From IMG/VR virus record IMGVR_UViG_3300022868_000444, positions 1-28,812 of that record: DNA of 28,812 nt. One strand, 5' to 3'. The stretch is from a virus. This document shows, in pieces, positions 2,216-21,362 of the stretch. Both the position numbers and the translations under genes were made by a program. Under the pieces are notes generated by a model that saw only the letters and a list, made by a program, of their open reading frames with translations, was not told the origin of the DNA and ran no database searches. Numbering within the stretch: the stretch's first letter is position 1; every line of letters starts with the position of its first letter.

Positions 2216-2869
2216 TTGGCAACGTTCGATAATCGCAGAATAGAGATGGTTGCGCTCGGCACTATTGAGCACTGGCCGCGCAATCCAAAAGATCACGATC
2301 TAGGCGCTATGCACGCGAGCATCAAGCGCCATGGTTTCGTTGAGCCTATGGTACGCGACGACCGCACCGGGCGGCTGGTCGCTGGGCACGGACGCGACAT
2401 CGCACTCAAGCAAATGAAGGCTAGCGGCGAGCCAGTACCGGCGGGCATCGAAGAACGCGACGGCGAGTGGTTCGTGCCGGTCGAGCTGGGCGTGAGATTC
2501 GAGAGCGACGCCGACGCAGAATCTTACATCGTAGCATCGCACCGCGTTGGCGAGCTGGGCGGCTGGCTAGAGCCTCAGTTAGCGATTGTGCTAGGAGACC
2601 TCGCCACAGACGGGCTACTCGAAGGAACCGGCTTTGATGGCGATGACGTGGACTATATCATCAAGACGCAGGCCGACGACTTGCGCGCAGATTACGACTT
2701 CTTGGGCGACCCTGGTCAAGAGGACGCGGCGCCACTAGAGCAAAAGGCGTTCCCGTTGGCGATTGTGCTGACGGTGGACGAGCACAAGCGCTGGCAGGCG
2801 CACAAGAAGAGCGTGAAGACGCAAGACGACCGCACTGCATTCATGGCACTATGGCGCTCCGTGTGTTAG
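2216..2869 (+). CDS. ParB-like N-terminal domain protein
   Basis: A 217-residue protein with a ParB/sulfiredoxin-like domain over about residues 10-110. Visible hallmarks are LGTIEHWPRNPKDHD, the helix ASIKRHGFVEPMVRD, and LVAGHGRDIALKQM, which matches the GHxR nucleotide/phosphate-binding box of the family. The C-terminal half is acidic and lacks the HTH of true ParB, so a partitioning role is unlikely. Phage and mobile-element proteins of this type usually accompany DNA modification genes. The start is TTG 2216 preceded by GGCGGGGG. The 3' end overlaps the radical SAM gene by 19 bases, implying coupled translation and possibly a joint function. Confidence 0.75.
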   Translation: MATFDNRRIEMVALGTIEHWPRNPKDHDLGAMHASIKRHGFVEPMVRDDRTGRLVAGHGRDIALKQMKASGEPVPAGIEERDGEWFVPVELGVRFESDADAESYIVASHRVGELGGWLEPQLAIVLGDLATDGLLEGTGFDGDDVDYIIKTQADDLRADYDFLGDPGQEDAAPLEQKAFPLAIVLTVDEHKRWQAHKKSVKTQDDRTAFMALWRSVC

Positions 2870-4047
2870 ACGTTTACTGGGGCGAACTGCTCATATCACC
2901 GGCACCGCTGGAGCTGAGTCTCAACTCGTGCTCACACAACTGCTCGTATTGCTTTGCCAACTTGAACAAGGGCGCCTACGAAGAGAGCCCGGCGGGCATC
3001 ATGCGCCTACTGGCCTCCTATGGCGAGCGCACCACGCTAGTGGCCAAGCTCTTGCAAGGCGGCTACCCGGTGGTCGTATCGAATCGCATGGATCCGTTCG
3101 GCAAGAGCAACTTTGAGCAAGTGACGCCCATCATGCGAACCATGGTCGCCATGGGTATACCGATAGAAGTACAGACTAAGGGCGGCGAGGGCATTGACGA
3201 AGTACTCGACTTCCTACCGCCGTCGGTGTGGTATATCTCGCTCTCTTATGGTGACGACGCTATCAGGCAACGCATCGAGCCCGGCGCGCCCAGTGTGGAG
3301 CACAGACTCGATCTGGTACAGAAGCTTACAGCGCGCGGTCATACGGTAGTGTGGGGGCTCAACCCTTACGTGCCAGAGTGGCTACCGGAGCCGGAGCCGC
3401 TATTCGCCTCCATGGCAGAGCGGGACGTCAAGGGCGTGTGGCTCGAAATACTACACCTCAACTATCGCCAGATCCGCAATATGAAGGGCTGGCAGACTGA
3501 GGCGCTAGGCGAGCCTATCATGAAGCGGGCACGCAAACGCAAGATAGAGCCGGCGCTGTGGGATTCGATACAATACGCCTACACGCTGGCCGGCTCTCAT
3601 TCTATGGCGCTATTCTCCAAGGGCTTGCCGTGGCCGAGCGACTTTGTGGACATCATGCGCGGCCCGTACGCGCACAACTTCTCGACTATCCAGGACTTTG
3701 TGAACTGGTGCTACGAGAACAAGCAGGACGGCGATACCGTGAGTGCTGATGAGTGGGTGAGCGTACTAACGCGCGGCCTACCACAGAGCCAGCTCAAATT
3801 GCATCACTACTTGGGCGCAACGGCGCACGACCTATGGTGGACGCATCACATCCCGCTCAATATGACCTATGGCGACCTGTTCCGCATCATGTGGTCGGAG
3901 CGGCGCACGAGTCAATGTCCGGCTAACATGTTCTGCTTCGCATACGCGGGCAGCAAGAGCGAGCCAGTACTTGACGCGAACGGGCTACCGCTGATGGTAT
4001 TCGACTCGCGCTGGTTCCACACACTATACGCAGAAGGTGATGACTAG
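2851..4047 (+). CDS. Radical SAM enzyme (SPL-like group)
   Basis: A 398-residue enzyme with the [4Fe-4S]/S-adenosylmethionine motif C27-xxx-C31-xx-C34 (NSCSHNCSYCFANL). Downstream barrel elements include VVVSNRMDPFG, EVQTKGG, WYISLSYGDD and VWGLNPYVPEW. The arrangement resembles the spore-photoproduct-lyase/Rv2578c-like radical SAM group more than SPASM enzymes. The substrate is unknown; DNA, nucleotides or a peptide are all possible. The last third (about 230-398) is not recognised and has two further Cys near its end (SQCPANMFCF), which could bind a second cluster. It overlaps the ParB-like gene and lies just upstream of the terminase genes. Confidence 0.8.
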   Translation: MALRVLDVYWGELLISPAPLELSLNSCSHNCSYCFANLNKGAYEESPAGIMRLLASYGERTTLVAKLLQGGYPVVVSNRMDPFGKSNFEQVTPIMRTMVAMGIPIEVQTKGGEGIDEVLDFLPPSVWYISLSYGDDAIRQRIEPGAPSVEHRLDLVQKLTARGHTVVWGLNPYVPEWLPEPEPLFASMAERDVKGVWLEILHLNYRQIRNMKGWQTEALGEPIMKRARKRKIEPALWDSIQYAYTLAGSHSMALFSKGLPWPSDFVDIMRGPYAHNFSTIQDFVNWCYENKQDGDTVSADEWVSVLTRGLPQSQLKLHHYLGATAHDLWWTHHIPLNMTYGDLFRIMWSERRTSQCPANMFCFAYAGSKSEPVLDANGLPLMVFDSRWFHTLYAEGDD

Positions 4048-9923: not shown

Positions 9924-10775
9924 ATGACCGTTGGATATTCAAGAGTAGCTGATCTTAATAGCTATTTCAATAACATTTATGCTGATGCAGTGTTTACGCT
10001 GCGCGAGCAGACGCTTGGCGTTCGGTTGGTGAAGAAATTCACTGACGGACGCGGCGACCAAACGCGCACGCTGACATCGTATCCCTCCGTTACGCCAGTG
10101 GAAGTGGCTGAGACTGAGGATTTTGCCGCACCGACGCGGTTCGACAAGAGCCTCTTGGCGACGTTGACCCCCATCGAAGAGATGGCACAGATCATCCTCA
10201 CTGACCGGCGTATTGAGACTGACCAGCAAGACGCAGCCGGTGACGCATCTATCGAACTGGGCGCCGGGCTGGCCGACAAGGTTGACACGAACATCTTGGG
10301 CAACTTTAACAGCCTCACCGGCGGCACCGTGGGCGCAAGCGGCTCGACCATGACCTGGTCGTACTTCTACGCCGCGGCCTCCATCATGCGCAAGAACAAA
10401 GTTCCTCGCCCGTGGTACTGCGTGATGCACCCGTATCACTACCACGACCTGGGCGTTGCGGCTGCAACGGGTGCCACTGTGACCAACGCGCCACAGTTCC
10501 AGGACGAAGTAATGCGCCAGTGGTATGTCGGCACCATCGCCGGCGTCGACCTGTTCATTGACGGCAACTGCGAAGAGGACGGGACTGACGCCTACAGCGC
10601 CATTTTCAACCCTTCCGCTATGGCCTTTGACCTGCGGCGTGACTATCGGATGGAACGTGAGCGGGACGCCTCGAAGCGTGCGTGGGAACTGAACTCAACC
10701 TTGCTCTATGCACACGGCGTCTGGCGGCCCACGTGGGGCGTTCAGATTATTGCCGATGTGACCACGCCTGTCTAG
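9924..10775 (+). CDS. Major capsid protein (HK97-fold type)
   Basis: A 283-residue protein directly after the scaffold, the standard place for the major capsid protein. Recognisable stretches are the N-terminal REQTLGVRLVKKFTDGRG, RFDKSLLATLTPIEEMAQI, the P-loop-region-like NKVPRPWYCVMHPYHYHDL and the C-terminal HGVWRPTWGVQIIAD. The arrangement fits HK97-fold coat proteins of the phage/N4-gp56-like group. The first 25 codons are clearly richer in A and T than the rest, as expected for a strongly translated gene with an unstructured start. The SD is AGAGGTGA. Confidence 0.88.
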   Translation: MTVGYSRVADLNSYFNNIYADAVFTLREQTLGVRLVKKFTDGRGDQTRTLTSYPSVTPVEVAETEDFAAPTRFDKSLLATLTPIEEMAQIILTDRRIETDQQDAAGDASIELGAGLADKVDTNILGNFNSLTGGTVGASGSTMTWSYFYAAASIMRKNKVPRPWYCVMHPYHYHDLGVAAATGATVTNAPQFQDEVMRQWYVGTIAGVDLFIDGNCEEDGTDAYSAIFNPSAMAFDLRRDYRMERERDASKRAWELNSTLLYAHGVWRPTWGVQIIADVTTPV

Positions 10776-10789
10776 GAGGAATAACAATC

Positions 10790-11191
10790 ATGTTTGGTAG
10801 AGACGTACAACAGACTGTTACGGTGGCTGTCTCGGATCCCACCGCTGACAGCGCAATGCCGATCTGGCGAGTTCCTGCGGAAATCACCAAGATCGAGATT
10901 CTTGAAGCGTGGGCTGTGTCTGACACGGCTGTCACGCTGGGCAACGGTACGGGTATCGCGCTGCGCCTGCTCGACTATGGCGCCGCTGGTACTTCCGTGG
11001 CTGGTACTGTAACGGCTTCGCTGGGTGGCACTGCTATCAGTTGGACTGCGCAGGTGCCCAAGAGCTTTACGGTCAGTGACGGGACTATGGACGCTGGGGA
11101 CTATCTCGTGCTCAACTATGACGAGACCGGAACCGTGGCGCCGCTCAACGTACTGGTGAGCTTTACCTGGGTATCAGGAGTTGGTGCCTAA
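10790..11191 (+). CDS. Candidate capsid decoration protein
   Basis: A 133-residue protein from ATG 10790, preceded by AGGAGGAATAAC; upstream in-frame codons belong to the capsid reading region and are rejected. It is rich in Thr, Val, Gly and Ala with alternating strands (TVTVAVSD, TAVTLGNGTG, GTVTASLGGTAISW) and no catalytic residues, suggesting a beta-sandwich. Its size, composition and place directly after the capsid gene fit a head decoration or cement protein. That is inferred from context. The last residues, SGVGA, and the stop codon lie inside an RNA hairpin that is partly duplicated 123 bases downstream. Confidence 0.6.
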   Translation: MFGRDVQQTVTVAVSDPTADSAMPIWRVPAEITKIEILEAWAVSDTAVTLGNGTGIALRLLDYGAAGTSVAGTVTASLGGTAISWTAQVPKSFTVSDGTMDAGDYLVLNYDETGTVAPLNVLVSFTWVSGVGA

Positions 11192-11222
11192 CCACCAACG
11201 CGTCTGGCCTGGTGACCTATGC
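11177..11222 (+). repeat. Imperfect direct repeat with hairpin, copy 1
   Basis: It begins at GGAG, includes the last codons and TAA of the upstream gene, and forms a 7-bp hairpin GTTGGTG-CCTAAC-CACCAAC (11180-11199). Distal CTGGCC (11204-11209) can pair with GGCTAG (11252-11257). A competing small hairpin, CCCACT with AGTGGG, lies at 11235-11253. Copy 2 lies 123 bases downstream with compensatory differences. Confidence 0.65.
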
Positions 11223-11299
11223 TCCCCCTCGGTACCCACTCCGGGGAAGTGGGCTAGGCTATGCGGTGGAAACATCCCCCCAGGACGGTTGCTTTTATA

Positions 11300-11347
11300 G
11301 GAGTCGGTGCCTAATCATCGACGCGGCTGGCTAGCGGTGCCTAGTGC
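11300..11347 (+). repeat. Imperfect direct repeat with hairpin, copy 2
   Basis: GTCGGTG-CCTAAT-CATCGAC (11303-11322) is the same hairpin as copy 1 with one U-A to C-G pair exchange and one G-C to G-U change. It is followed by a perfect 10-bp stem, CGCGGCTGGC (11322-11331) pairing with GCCAGCCGCG (11375-11384). Together the two copies occupy the 240-base gap before the first island glycosyltransferase. A short frame in copy 2 again ends GVGA-stop, so it may be a duplicated gene end that was kept as RNA structure. Confidence 0.65.
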
Positions 11348-11431
11348 ATCGTGAAGAGGCGTGCCCCCCGCCCTGCCAGCCGCGAATATCGGGGCAACTA
11401 ATAACGGAATAGTAACGAGGGGGCAGTGACC

Positions 11432-12616
11432 GTGAACATCTTTTGGCTCAGTAACGCGCCTTGGGCGCACAGTGGCTACGGCAATCAAACTAATCTGTTC
11501 TGGCCGCGTATCCAAAAACTAGGGCACAAAGTAACGCTGGGATCCAACTATGGTCTGAGCGGCGCACCTCTCAACGTCGAGACGATGGGCGAGCAGGCGC
11601 AGGTTTACCCGCAAGGATTCACAGCCTATGGCGCTGACGTGTTGGCGCCCTATGCCAAACACGCCAAGGCAGACATCGCCATTACGCTCTTTGACGCATG
11701 GGTGTTCGGCAACGCGAACGTGGGCGACGTGAGATGGGTACCCTGGTTGCCTGTTGACCACGACCCCGCCCCGCCCAAAGTGGTGACAGCGCTACAGAAC
11801 GCATGGCGGCCTATTGCGTATAGTCGCTTTGGCGAGCGCAAATTGCAAGAGGCAGGACTCGACCCTTTGTATGTGCCGCACGGAATTGACACCAAGGTGT
11901 TTAGCCCTGGCGACAAGAAAAAGGCGCGCGAGGCGCTCCGGTTCGACGAGGATGCCGACTTTGTAGCCGTCATGGTAGCCGCAAACAAAGGCTCACCCAG
12001 CCGCAAGAGCTTCAACGAGGTGCTGATCGCCTGGCGCAGCTTTGTTGAGAAACACCCCAAAGCGATGCTTTACATGCACACGCACACCGGGCGCGAGATG
12101 GCGGGCGAGGACTTGATCGCCATGCTGGAAGCGCTCGACATGCCAGCGGGGAGAGTGATATTTTGCGATCCGCTCTGGAATGTGCTGGGATATCCTGAGT
12201 CGTACATGGCGAACGTATACAGAGCCGCCGACGTGTTGATCAATCCGGCCAAGGGCGAAGGGTTTGGTATCCCGATTGTGGAAGCGCAAGCGTGCGGAAC
12301 GCCGGTGATTGTGACCGATTGCACCTCCATGAGTGAGTTGTGCTTTGCCGGCTGGAAGGTCTCCGGGCAGCCCACGTGGACAGATCAAGGCTCGTGGCAG
12401 TTCACGCCCTACATCGACCAGATTGAGGACGCGCTCGATAAGGCGTTTGAGTTGCGACGATTCGACAAGCTCAACAAGCAGGCGCGAGAGGGCGCTTTGG
12501 CATACGACGCAGACCGCGTGAACGAAGAATACTGGAAGCCGGTGCTAGAGCAGATCGAGTCCGAGATTGACGACTCCGGCACGCTCAAGCCGCTGGCGCC
12601 AGAGGTCGAGCTGTAG
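11432..12616 (+). CDS. Family 4-like glycosyltransferase (GT-B fold)
   Basis: Transfers a sugar from a nucleotide donor to an unknown acceptor; about 394 residues. The N-terminal Rossmann half begins FWLSNAPWAHSGYGNQ, and its hinge contains YVPHGIDTKVFSPGD. The C-terminal donor-binding motif is PAKGEGFGIPIVEAQACG (about residues 273-290), with the E-x7-E pattern typical of GT4 enzymes. I chose GTG 11432, eight bases after GAGGGGG; an in-frame GTG at 11426 sits too close to that SD. It is the first gene of the cargo island, after a 240-base structured gap. No membrane segment is visible, so it is probably cytoplasmic. Confidence 0.88.
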   Translation: MNIFWLSNAPWAHSGYGNQTNLFWPRIQKLGHKVTLGSNYGLSGAPLNVETMGEQAQVYPQGFTAYGADVLAPYAKHAKADIAITLFDAWVFGNANVGDVRWVPWLPVDHDPAPPKVVTALQNAWRPIAYSRFGERKLQEAGLDPLYVPHGIDTKVFSPGDKKKAREALRFDEDADFVAVMVAANKGSPSRKSFNEVLIAWRSFVEKHPKAMLYMHTHTGREMAGEDLIAMLEALDMPAGRVIFCDPLWNVLGYPESYMANVYRAADVLINPAKGEGFGIPIVEAQACGTPVIVTDCTSMSELCFAGWKVSGQPTWTDQGSWQFTPYIDQIEDALDKAFELRRFDKLNKQAREGALAYDADRVNEEYWKPVLEQIESEIDDSGTLKPLAPEVEL

Positions 12617-12637: not shown

Positions 12638-12967
12638 ATGAGCAATAGCGTAAAGATTCCGGGACTGCCGGAGATGACAGAGTTCCATATTGACTGGCCT
12701 ATGCCTAGTCAAGAAACGGGTTGTCGGGTTGACGAAATATATAACGCCACCATGGCAGCGAAGTGGGTTGGCGTATCGGAGAACGATTGGTATTGCATAG
12801 GTGCCGTTTTCGCTTGCGAAACCAGGATGGATTGCACTATTCAGCTAGGCACACAATTGATTTCTTGTGCGGCGGACATAGAGCAAGTGCGTGTGGTGAA
12901 AGTTGGGGCAGCGCACATCGTAACGGCCGTGATCGATCTGTTTAACTTCAAGGCGCTACCGGCATGA
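12638..12967 (+). CDS. Unknown 109-residue island protein
   Basis: It starts at ATG 12638 after a run of eight G (SD) and ends overlapping the next gene's ATG by four bases. The C-terminal 60 residues are rich in beta-type sequence (WYCIGAVFACETRMDCTIQL, then IVTAVIDLF) and contain five Cys. There is no signal peptide and no known motif. Flanked by a glycosyltransferase and a radical SAM enzyme, it might be a substrate, carrier or virion component that those enzymes act on. That is speculation from position only. Confidence 0.6.
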   Translation: MSNSVKIPGLPEMTEFHIDWPMPSQETGCRVDEIYNATMAAKWVGVSENDWYCIGAVFACETRMDCTIQLGTQLISCAADIEQVRVVKVGAAHIVTAVIDLFNFKALPA

Positions 12968-14223
12968 AGATAAGCCTATTCAATCCGCCAGTGCATTACT
13001 ACGATGGGATGCACTACCTGATGAATCCAGCCATGGGGCTGCCGATATTAGCAGGCGTGCTGGAGCGCGCGGGGCATGAGGCCCACGTGTGGGACTTGGA
13101 AGCCTTGCTCATAAGCCCGACTAAGCTAGCAGAGCAGTTCGACGCGCAACGCGATCGCTGGCCTGACGTGGTGGGCTTTACCGTGACGACGCACAACCAG
13201 CGCGGCGTTCGCGAGTGTATCGAGGCGCTACGGGGCGTGGGCTACAAGGGCTACATCATGCTGGGCGGGCCGCATATCACGCTACTGGCGTCGCAGAACA
13301 TCGACACGCAGAGTGCATGGGGCGCCAACGTGTGGGTGTATGGCGAGTGCGAGGGGAACATCGTTAGCATCGTTGAGACGCAGCCTAGCGGACTGGTCCA
13401 AGGCGAACGCGCAGACCCTATCCCAGGCCCGGCGTGGCATTTGCACACACCGGTACTTACGGCCTACCAGGGGAATATGCCCAAAGTCGGGCACCCGGAA
13501 GGCATCGCCATGTGGTCGAGAGGGTGCCCGCATAATTGCATCTTCTGCGGAAACCCCGTTTTTAGCCACCAGCGCATACGCATGCGTGACTCGCAAGCCA
13601 TCTATGACGACATGGCGGCGCTCAAAGAGATGGGCGTCAAGGCAGTGTTTGTGTATGACGACGAGCTTGTGGGTATGGGCGGCGCTCAGAACGAGTGGCT
13701 GCTTGAGGTCTGCGAGAAGATTGAGCCGCTGGGCCTATTGTGGAAGTGCCAAGGGCGCTGTAGCGAAAAGGCCATTAGGCCGGACGTGCTGCAAGCCATG
13801 TACAAAGCGGGCTGCCGCGCGATCATGTGGGGAGTCGAGTCGTTTAGCGAGCGCGTGCTCAAAGCCATCAAAAAGGGCACGAACATGGCCGACATCTGGC
13901 ACACGCTGCGAGCCGCACACGACGCCGGTATCGGCAACTGGTTGTTTCTCATGGTGGGCAACTACCAGGAGTCCAAGCCCGACCTGGCACACACCGAAGC
14001 GCAGATACGCAAGGCGTGCGCAGAGGATCTCGTGCAATGGCGACAAGTGACCATCTGCACGCCGGTGCCGGGCACTGAGATGTACGATTTAGCCATGGCA
14101 GAAGGTTGGGGCGTTGAGCCGCCAGAGAGTGGGCCGCAAATGGCGCAAGCGTACAATGACACGCCGTGGTTGAGCAAGCGAGAGATGAAGTACTGGAAGA
14201 CGAGACTAGAGGCGGCATCATGA
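12964..14223 (+). CDS. B12-binding-domain radical SAM enzyme
   Basis: A 419-residue class B-like radical SAM protein. Residues 1-150 form a cobalamin-binding-type Rossmann domain (ISLFNPPVHYYDG, GLPILAGVLERAGHEAHVWD, PDVVGFTV, GGPHIT, YGECEGNIV) but lack the DxHxxG cobalt-ligand motif, as many members do. The cluster motif is C188-xxx-C192-xx-C195 (WSRGCPHNCIFCGNP). Barrel motifs include VFVYDDEL, WGVES and VPGTEMYDLA. Relatives methylate or rearrange sugars, lipids, peptides and nucleic acids, so the substrate cannot be named. It starts inside the stop of the unknown upstream gene and is tightly coupled to it. Confidence 0.87.
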   Translation: MKISLFNPPVHYYDGMHYLMNPAMGLPILAGVLERAGHEAHVWDLEALLISPTKLAEQFDAQRDRWPDVVGFTVTTHNQRGVRECIEALRGVGYKGYIMLGGPHITLLASQNIDTQSAWGANVWVYGECEGNIVSIVETQPSGLVQGERADPIPGPAWHLHTPVLTAYQGNMPKVGHPEGIAMWSRGCPHNCIFCGNPVFSHQRIRMRDSQAIYDDMAALKEMGVKAVFVYDDELVGMGGAQNEWLLEVCEKIEPLGLLWKCQGRCSEKAIRPDVLQAMYKAGCRAIMWGVESFSERVLKAIKKGTNMADIWHTLRAAHDAGIGNWLFLMVGNYQESKPDLAHTEAQIRKACAEDLVQWRQVTICTPVPGTEMYDLAMAEGWGVEPPESGPQMAQAYNDTPWLSKREMKYWKTRLEAAS

Positions 14224-20436: not shown

Positions 20437-20547
20437 GCCATAGACCTCGCCGAGCACAACTGCGAGCTATCGCGCGCGCGGGTGGCGCACTGGCAAGCGC
20501 AGCGCGAAGAGGAAGAGCTACAGCCAGAGTTAGAGGGGGTATTGTGA
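20437..20547 (+). pseudogene. 3' remnant of the disrupted DNA methyltransferase gene
   Basis: The frame ending at TGA 20545-20547 reads AIDLAEHNCELSRARVAHWQ then a Glu-rich tail. It resembles the final strand and helix of amino-DNA-methyltransferases (compare VGVDLNPEYIKLAQERM in the intact gene). It is open from ATG 20419 but has no SD. Its stop overlaps the GTG of the next gene (TTGTGA), as expected for a former operon member. The whole catalytic middle is missing. Confidence 0.55.
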
Positions 20548-21362
20548 AGGAGAGACGCAAGCACTATCTGATTAACGTGACGTGGCGCTGTCCCAACGCG
20601 GGCATCTGCCGCTACTGCTGGGTAGACCATACCATCCGACAGCGCCCGGAACTACTCGCAGCGCCAGAGCGCCCGCTAGAGGACTGGGTCGCAGCCATAC
20701 AACGTGACGCGCCCGACGTGGTAGACATTGCCGGCGGCGAGCCGTTTATCGTGAACTGGCTTGCTGACTTGATGCTGGCCTGCCCTGATGTGGCGTTTGG
20801 GCTGAGTACCAACGGGCTCTATCCAAGAGCCATTGAGAAGCTGGCGGACGCGGCGCCAACAAACCTGATTAGCGTCAATATGAGCTATCACCCGGACGGG
20901 CGTGGGCGCTATAAAAACTACGACAAGGTGTGGCGCGAGTCTATCCGCATACTAAGCAGTGGCGAGGGCCGCCCGGCGCCTAACATCGTTGACTATAAAG
21001 ACACCGTCGAGCTGTCTGCTGACGCTATGGCGTGGATGAACGAGAACGGCATCAATTACGTCGTTAGCCCGTATGAGGACATGGACGGGCTTGAACCGTT
21101 GCAAGAGCAAGGGCTATGCTGTCAGGGCGGCATTGACCATCTCACGATTGCGCCCGACGGTAGCGCGTGGCCGTGCTTGACCACACTGCGCAGCCCTTAT
21201 TGGCGGGAGACCTGCCTCGGCAACTGGCTCGACGGCGAGCTAGACCTGAGTCGTAAGCCGCAACCGTGTCACTTGTACTGTCTCGACCATTACGTGTTGG
21301 AAGACCAGCACAGCGCCGGCGACATGTGGGGGACGCGCGCGCGACCGTGCGAGGGGGAATAG
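20544..21362 (+). CDS. Radical SAM enzyme with SPASM-like C-terminus
   Basis: A 272-residue enzyme starting at GTG 20544, preceded by GAGGGGG. The cluster motif is spaced unusually as C16-x5-C22-xx-C25 (WRCPNAGICRYCW) instead of Cx3CxxC. The SAM-binding GGEP is at 64-67 (VDIAGGEPF). The C-terminal third has a SPASM/twitch-like Cys set: C-x12-G-x4-C (CQGGIDHLTIAPDGSAWPC), then CLGNW, PCHLYC and a last RPC. Such auxiliary-cluster enzymes modify peptides or sugars and alcohols. The substrate is unknown, but its place among glycosyltransferases favours a glycan or a protein acceptor. Confidence 0.82.
   Translation: MKERRKHYLINVTWRCPNAGICRYCWVDHTIRQRPELLAAPERPLEDWVAAIQRDAPDVVDIAGGEPFIVNWLADLMLACPDVAFGLSTNGLYPRAIEKLADAAPTNLISVNMSYHPDGRGRYKNYDKVWRESIRILSSGEGRPAPNIVDYKDTVELSADAMAWMNENGINYVVSPYEDMDGLEPLQEQGLCCQGGIDHLTIAPDGSAWPCLTTLRSPYWRETCLGNWLDGELDLSRKPQPCHLYCLDHYVLEDQHSAGDMWGTRARPCEGE

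Follow-up and report, generated by a model that had tools for sequence, protein, structure and literature searches.

In phage T4, the mRNA of gene 32 carries a translational pseudoknot operator. Cyanophages encode structured RNAs such as the manA and wcaG motifs, some of which lie ahead of sugar-metabolism genes (PMC2864571). The RNA described here is closest to int-alpA (RF02996), so far an orphan family that is filed as an sRNA and whose name turned up in a single paper, as an entry in a list, in a full-text literature search. The int-alpA copies of E. coli lie 3' of an integrase gene and 5' of the next start codon; those of Pseudomonas, Nitrosomonas, and others share the pseudoknot and also sit just before a start codon. 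We found that RNA of this type extends to many metagenomic phage contigs, and our analysis would place it as a cis leader with a testable mechanism that names two pairings per copy.

The DNA analyzed (the window) is one entire 28.8-kb IMG/VR virus record. Its gene for a 133-amino-acid protein is placed after the major capsid gene, likewise in Microcystis phage Mae-JY09, and is followed by a glycosyltransferase gene (Table 1). The 133-amino-acid protein matched nothing in Pfam or PHROG; host genomes searched with it gave none, and a nucleotide search for named phages gave none. For the glycosyltransferase gene, the GTG at 11432 is more likely to be the start than 11426, judging from homologs that begin MKIxW. 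Elsewhere the window holds several radical-SAM genes (12964-14223, 2851-4047, and 20544-21362), one with a B12-binding domain, which adjoin epimerase, FkbM, and DNA methylase genes.

The gap between the 133-amino-acid gene and the glycosyltransferase gene is occupied by two hairpins, and a sequence-only reading had taken this duplicated hairpin for a selected RNA structure that tunes expression between capsid genes and cargo. Two other candidates for the gap were rejected. Stop-codon readthrough or frameshifting would soon end, because in L009, L011, L014, and the window the frame stays open for no more than about 7-11 codons, and an intrinsic terminator (a GC-rich hairpin plus a T run) has no terminator-like site on the + strand and no T run within 10600-11600. 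Because the region folded as a whole does no better than shuffled sequence (z -0.51), the question was settled with relatives, and the evidence that follows is comparative.

Table 1. Features of the window between the putative decoration gene and the glycosyltransferase gene
Feature	Position	Strand	Evidence
133-aa gene following the major capsid gene; probable decoration protein	10790..11191	+	ORF, AGGAGG upstream, homologs
Partial duplicate plus insertion: P0 copy 1 and P1-like 5' strand, without UA/GAAAA junction	11176..11298	+	No model match
P0 copy 1, GUUGGUG-CCUAAC-CACCAAC	11180..11199	+	-8.1 kcal/mol; homologous stems in L009, L010, L011, L014
ORF of 17 codons with GVGA-stop at its end; may be what is left of an earlier decoration gene's 3' end	11261..11314	+	Translation; homologs end GVGA-stop
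P0 copy 2, GUCGGUG-CCUAAU-CAUCGAC, just 5' of core element	11303..11322	+	-7.1 kcal/mol
Core three-way junction P1-UA-P2-GAAR-P3	11322..11384	+	R1 52.7 bits, E 1.7e-10; pair counts; int-alpA 27.3 bits
P1, 10-bp stem CGCGGCUGGC/GCCAGCCGCG	11322-11331 with 11375-11384	+	
J12, UA	11332-11333	+	
P2 hairpin	11334-11352	+	
J23, GAAG	11353-11356	+	
P3, with bulged C	11357-11361/11369-11374	+	
L3 segment UGCCCCC, complementary to 11391-11396 and to 11419-11425	11362..11368	+	
Proximal pseudoknot partner GGGGCA, 6 bp with L3	11391..11396	+	Pseudoknot covariation in relatives
Ribosome-binding site of next gene, GGGGGCA; 7 bp with L3, alternative partner	11419..11425	+	
Glycosyltransferase gene	11432..12616	+	PHROG 2170, Pfam Glyco_trans_1_4, homologs

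Relatives were gathered through homologs of the 133-amino-acid protein, homologs of the glycosyltransferase, and a DNA pattern, and dozens of contigs from phages were obtained in this way. In the same gap, a majority of the contigs inspected show an RNA with P1, UA, P2, GAAAA (or GACAA), P3, the 3' strand of P1, a short spacer, and a G-rich strand in this order, and in dozens of IMG/VR phages this element lies between head genes and the glycosyltransferase gene. In 29 trimmed copies, 94.9% of cells are paired versus 65.9% in shuffled controls, the covariation score is 0.749 versus 0.217 shuffled and at most 0.161 slid, and 12 of 15 pairs show two-sided changes; P1 and partly the pseudoknot were selection criteria for the glycosyltransferase set, which makes its figures partly a product of construction and leaves the pattern set described below unaffected. 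P2 was no selection criterion, and its three pairs are 100% kept. The covariation expected of a selected structure is found in these homologous sequences, and it includes the stop-codon hairpin in five lineages.

A covariance model, R1, was run over 618 kb and gave 51 matches. Each locus had a single match, and almost all matches were 5' of a glycosyltransferase gene on the same strand (contexts from protein-guided searches are biased to this gene), plus one E. coli int-alpA copy. The element is absent from L006-L008 and L037-L040. L006, L007, and L008 have a simple hairpin in its place, and beyond the gap their glycosyltransferase reading frame is interrupted by a TGA within its conserved beginning (ILWCS-stop-ANAPW). 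In another relative (L010:3338-3560), the glycosyltransferase gene stops after about 12 codons and resumes later, where it matches L047 from residue 12; this interruption may be an insertion, perhaps a self-splicing intron. An independent set of 62 non-glycosyltransferase copies came from two sequence patterns that ignore the loop and its partner. These elements precede DUF1376, methylase, HNH, and other genes.

The loop of P3 can pair with the strand that directly follows P1. The resulting pseudoknot matches UGCCCC with GGGGCA in the window and extends the conserved object to 11322-11396. The two sides covary in relatives, which pair AUCCCCC/GGGGGAU, GUCCCC/GGGGAC, GCCUCC/GGAGGC, AAGCUCCA/UGGAGCUU, and AAUCUCCC/GGGAGAUU. 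Own pairs exceed mismatched pairs in the glycosyltransferase phages (6.15 versus 4.38 bp, z 9.6), where the partial selection noted above applies, in the 62-copy pattern set (5.76 versus 3.78, z 16.2), and in int-alpA from 28 loci (5.54 versus 3.74, z 9.4). Three pattern-set copies (L163, L169, and L186) keep P1 and the junction with little complementarity to the proximal strand; they are possibly decayed copies or another subtype.

The same loop has a second, separate complement in the next gene's ribosome-binding site, as UGCCCCC/GGGGGCA in the window, GCAAGCCCCC/GGGGGCUUGC in L077, GGGCUCCCUCC/GGAGGGAGCCC in L080, and UUCAUCCUU/AAGGAUGAA in L251. With search windows separated from the proximal match in both phage sets, own pairs again exceed mismatched ones in the glycosyltransferase phages (6.03 versus 4.59, z 7.0) and in the pattern set (5.15 versus 3.82, z 10.5); in int-alpA, where overlap with the proximal match is possible, the difference is smaller (4.75 versus 4.12, z 3.5, p 0.00065). 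All these permutations count related sequences as independent, and the mismatched pairs include relatives, which acts against the signal. Both partners of the loop are G-rich, and G-rich ribosome-binding sites are common in the window phage, so we also compared the loop with the sites that serve other genes of each contig. In 29 of 34 cases (p 1.3e-6) the better match was to the site of the next gene, although the search windows of some copies may reach a few bases into the proximal strand. Within the DUF1376 family the ribosome-binding site changes along with the loop (4.88 versus 3.66, p 0.002). In two gene families the loop itself varies little.

The longest of these matches (11 bp in L080, 10 bp in L077 and L053, and 9 bp in L251) extend past any Shine-Dalgarno motif, and a minority (L070, L087, L098, and L109) have just 3-4 bp. 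P3 or its loop is longer than elsewhere in L053, L057, L059, and L068; the first three of these are among the longest matches, at 9-10 bp. The mean duplex energies of the two pairings are similar, at -13.5 and -14.9 kcal/mol. Comparison of relatives thus establishes the predicted fold, the pseudoknot, the double complementarity, and the fixed position. What is new here, on the evidence of base complementarity, is that one P3 loop is complementary to a pseudoknot partner and, separately, to a ribosome-binding site.

The two pairings exclude one another and are about equally strong by calculation, and one of them would cover the ribosome-binding site; this is how a translational switch is designed. 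We consider it probable, with some reserve, that the element is a cis-acting switch of int-alpA type built on these two loop pairings. The three-way junction would fold and the P3 loop would dock on the strand just after P1, and this pseudoknotted state would leave the next gene's ribosome-binding site free (on). Alternatively, the loop would pair with the ribosome-binding site, some 20-30 nt downstream, and so make it inaccessible (off). Both pairings would have to form, and the second would be the repressing one; since each excludes the other, their balance would determine how strongly the next gene (in the window, the glycosyltransferase gene) is expressed. The suggestion that the region tunes expression from capsid to cargo genes is thus partly upheld: a selected, covarying structure is there, but it also precedes quite different genes and is thus not confined to the capsid-to-cargo setting. 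Tuning itself now has a concrete candidate mechanism through which it might act, namely that the P3 loop switches to the ribosome-binding site as its partner.

What could trip such a switch? Candidates would be a ligand of the junction, a protein of the phage or its host, or a ribosome that ends translation of the capsid gene upstream. In 29 of 34 copies only 4-14 nt separate P1 from the stop codon of the head gene, which would bring a terminating ribosome into contact with P1; this short distance may also simply reflect tight packing. In one phage group (L215, L198, L223, L248, and others), a TATAAT-like box lies a few bases 5' of P1, with 12 perfect boxes versus 2.4 expected. Because P1 begins beside the box, no upstream ribosome is expected there, and the transcript probably starts with the element.

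The short distance from stop codon to P1, together with strong GC-rich folding, would also suit a passive role, in which a stable pseudoknot would shield the abundant capsid mRNA at its 3' end or act as an insulator toward the following gene, with the complementarity to the ribosome-binding site a by-product of G-rich sites. We regard this explanation as unlikely. The match to the ribosome-binding site exceeds what G-richness gives, both in the permutations and within genomes, and in the TATAAT-box group the element would start the transcript, which leaves no upstream gene to protect.

A trans-acting sRNA, processed from the operon or made as its own transcript, could instead use the C-rich loop to target ribosome-binding sites elsewhere. 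Its loop does resemble the seed loops of sRNAs, and the Rfam type of int-alpA is Gene; sRNA. However, the element occurs once per locus at a fixed position in cis, in the intergenic space that leads up to a start codon, and its loop fits the adjacent site better than it fits those of the phage's other genes, which makes this reading improbable.

The junction has unpaired residues that are invariant (T11, A12, G23, and A24 in alignment A5), as would be expected if UA, GAAAA, and the bulged C bound a small molecule in the manner of a strict riboswitch. Such residues are few for a ligand pocket, and the genes downstream (glycosyltransferase, DUF1376, methylase, HNH endonuclease, and integrase-neighbor genes) share no common pathway. 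A strict riboswitch therefore seems quite improbable to us.

The sequence features from which the sequence-only reading began are real. The hairpin, which we call P0, belongs to a 33-nt direct repeat (11176-11208 and 11299-11331) that is 85% identical at a spacing of 123; both hairpin sequences fit a common 7-bp stem plan with a CCUAAY loop, copy 2 has the compensatory changes U-A to C-G and G-C to G-U, and the loop of copy 1 holds the stop codon of the 133-amino-acid gene (11189-11191). The motif GGTGCCTA does occur a third time at 11336, where it lies within another hairpin, P2, whose sequence CGGTGCCTAGTGCATCG resembles P0. Of the longer-range stems said to follow each copy, that of copy 2 is a perfect 10 bp, but the stem after copy 1 is not its equivalent. 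R1 matches the window at 11322-11384 only, and neither R1 nor the Rfam int-alpA model matches anything at copy 1; copy 2 alone therefore marks the element.

P0 nevertheless has a history of its own. In the window, as in the closest relatives, the stop codon lies within P0, and the P0 stem is retained with synonymous-site covariation in both window copies, L009, L010, L011, and L014. The 3' arm tracks synonymous changes in the GVGA-stop codons, such that own stems have 6-7 bp and nearly all mismatched ones 2-5. That the duplicated hairpin is itself the regulatory unit is nonetheless scarcely credible, since P0 is absent from L018, L035, L049, and most other relatives that retain the core, two copies occur only in the window virus (two other contigs with the duplication are nearly identical to it), and copy 1 lacks the core. 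Most relatives have one element, and nothing supports selection for the duplication itself. P0 is an accessory confined to a single clade; what has been conserved is the pseudoknotted three-way junction, which starts at the end of copy 2.

Copy 1 of the window holds the true stop codon, whereas the intact element follows copy 2, which is preceded by a short ORF that likewise ends GVGA-stop. Copy 1 is a partial duplicate, probably the scar of a capsid-gene rearrangement. The simplest reading would be that a decoration gene was duplicated or replaced, and that its old 3' end and the element were left behind.

How does this element relate to int-alpA? The window copy scores 27.3 bits at 11324-11394, below the gathering threshold of 35.8, and the relation was missed by Rfam at this threshold on the window alone and likewise by a 401-base search. 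The threshold is reached by 11 other phage copies: those of L064 (43.8), L048 (39.9), L035 (36.9), and L014 (36.5), and those of 7 of 18 pattern-found contigs (L261, L182, L192, L254, L180, L190, and L206). Given its score, the window copy is called int-alpA-like, a diverged relative by sequence, and is kept outside the family. When five whole genomes were scanned with R1 at E 0.01, their int-alpA copies went unmatched, which indicates that R1 and int-alpA are separable branches.

The likeness to int-alpA lies in the order P1-UA-P2-GAAAA-P3, to which the window aligns over model positions 1-71 with UA and GAAG; in a pseudoknot between the P3 loop and the 3' strand, which was inferred from the Rfam consensus and then found when tested; and in a position 20-80 nt ahead of a start codon. 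Unlike the integrase-alpA context of int-alpA, the window element lies in a phage late operon between a decoration gene and a glycosyltransferase gene, and it appears to act in cis, in contrast to the stand-alone sRNA of the Rfam entry. We tentatively suggest, as a possibility short of an expectation, that int-alpA-like RNAs form one large riboregulator class of phages and mobile elements, in which a single pseudoknot loop would pick a decoy strand or a ribosome-binding site, loop, decoy, and site would co-evolve before unrelated genes, and the trigger would be a new signal of the infection cycle. If true, phages would be using a portable translational switch ahead of genes for replication, head-associated genes, and accessory genes, and what this orphan RNA family does would become directly testable. 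The manA and wcaG motifs are different families, with no Rfam match at the window. With operators of the T4 gene 32 type, the element shares a pseudoknot near the ribosome-binding site in phage mRNA, but its fold differs, and one loop has two alternative partners.
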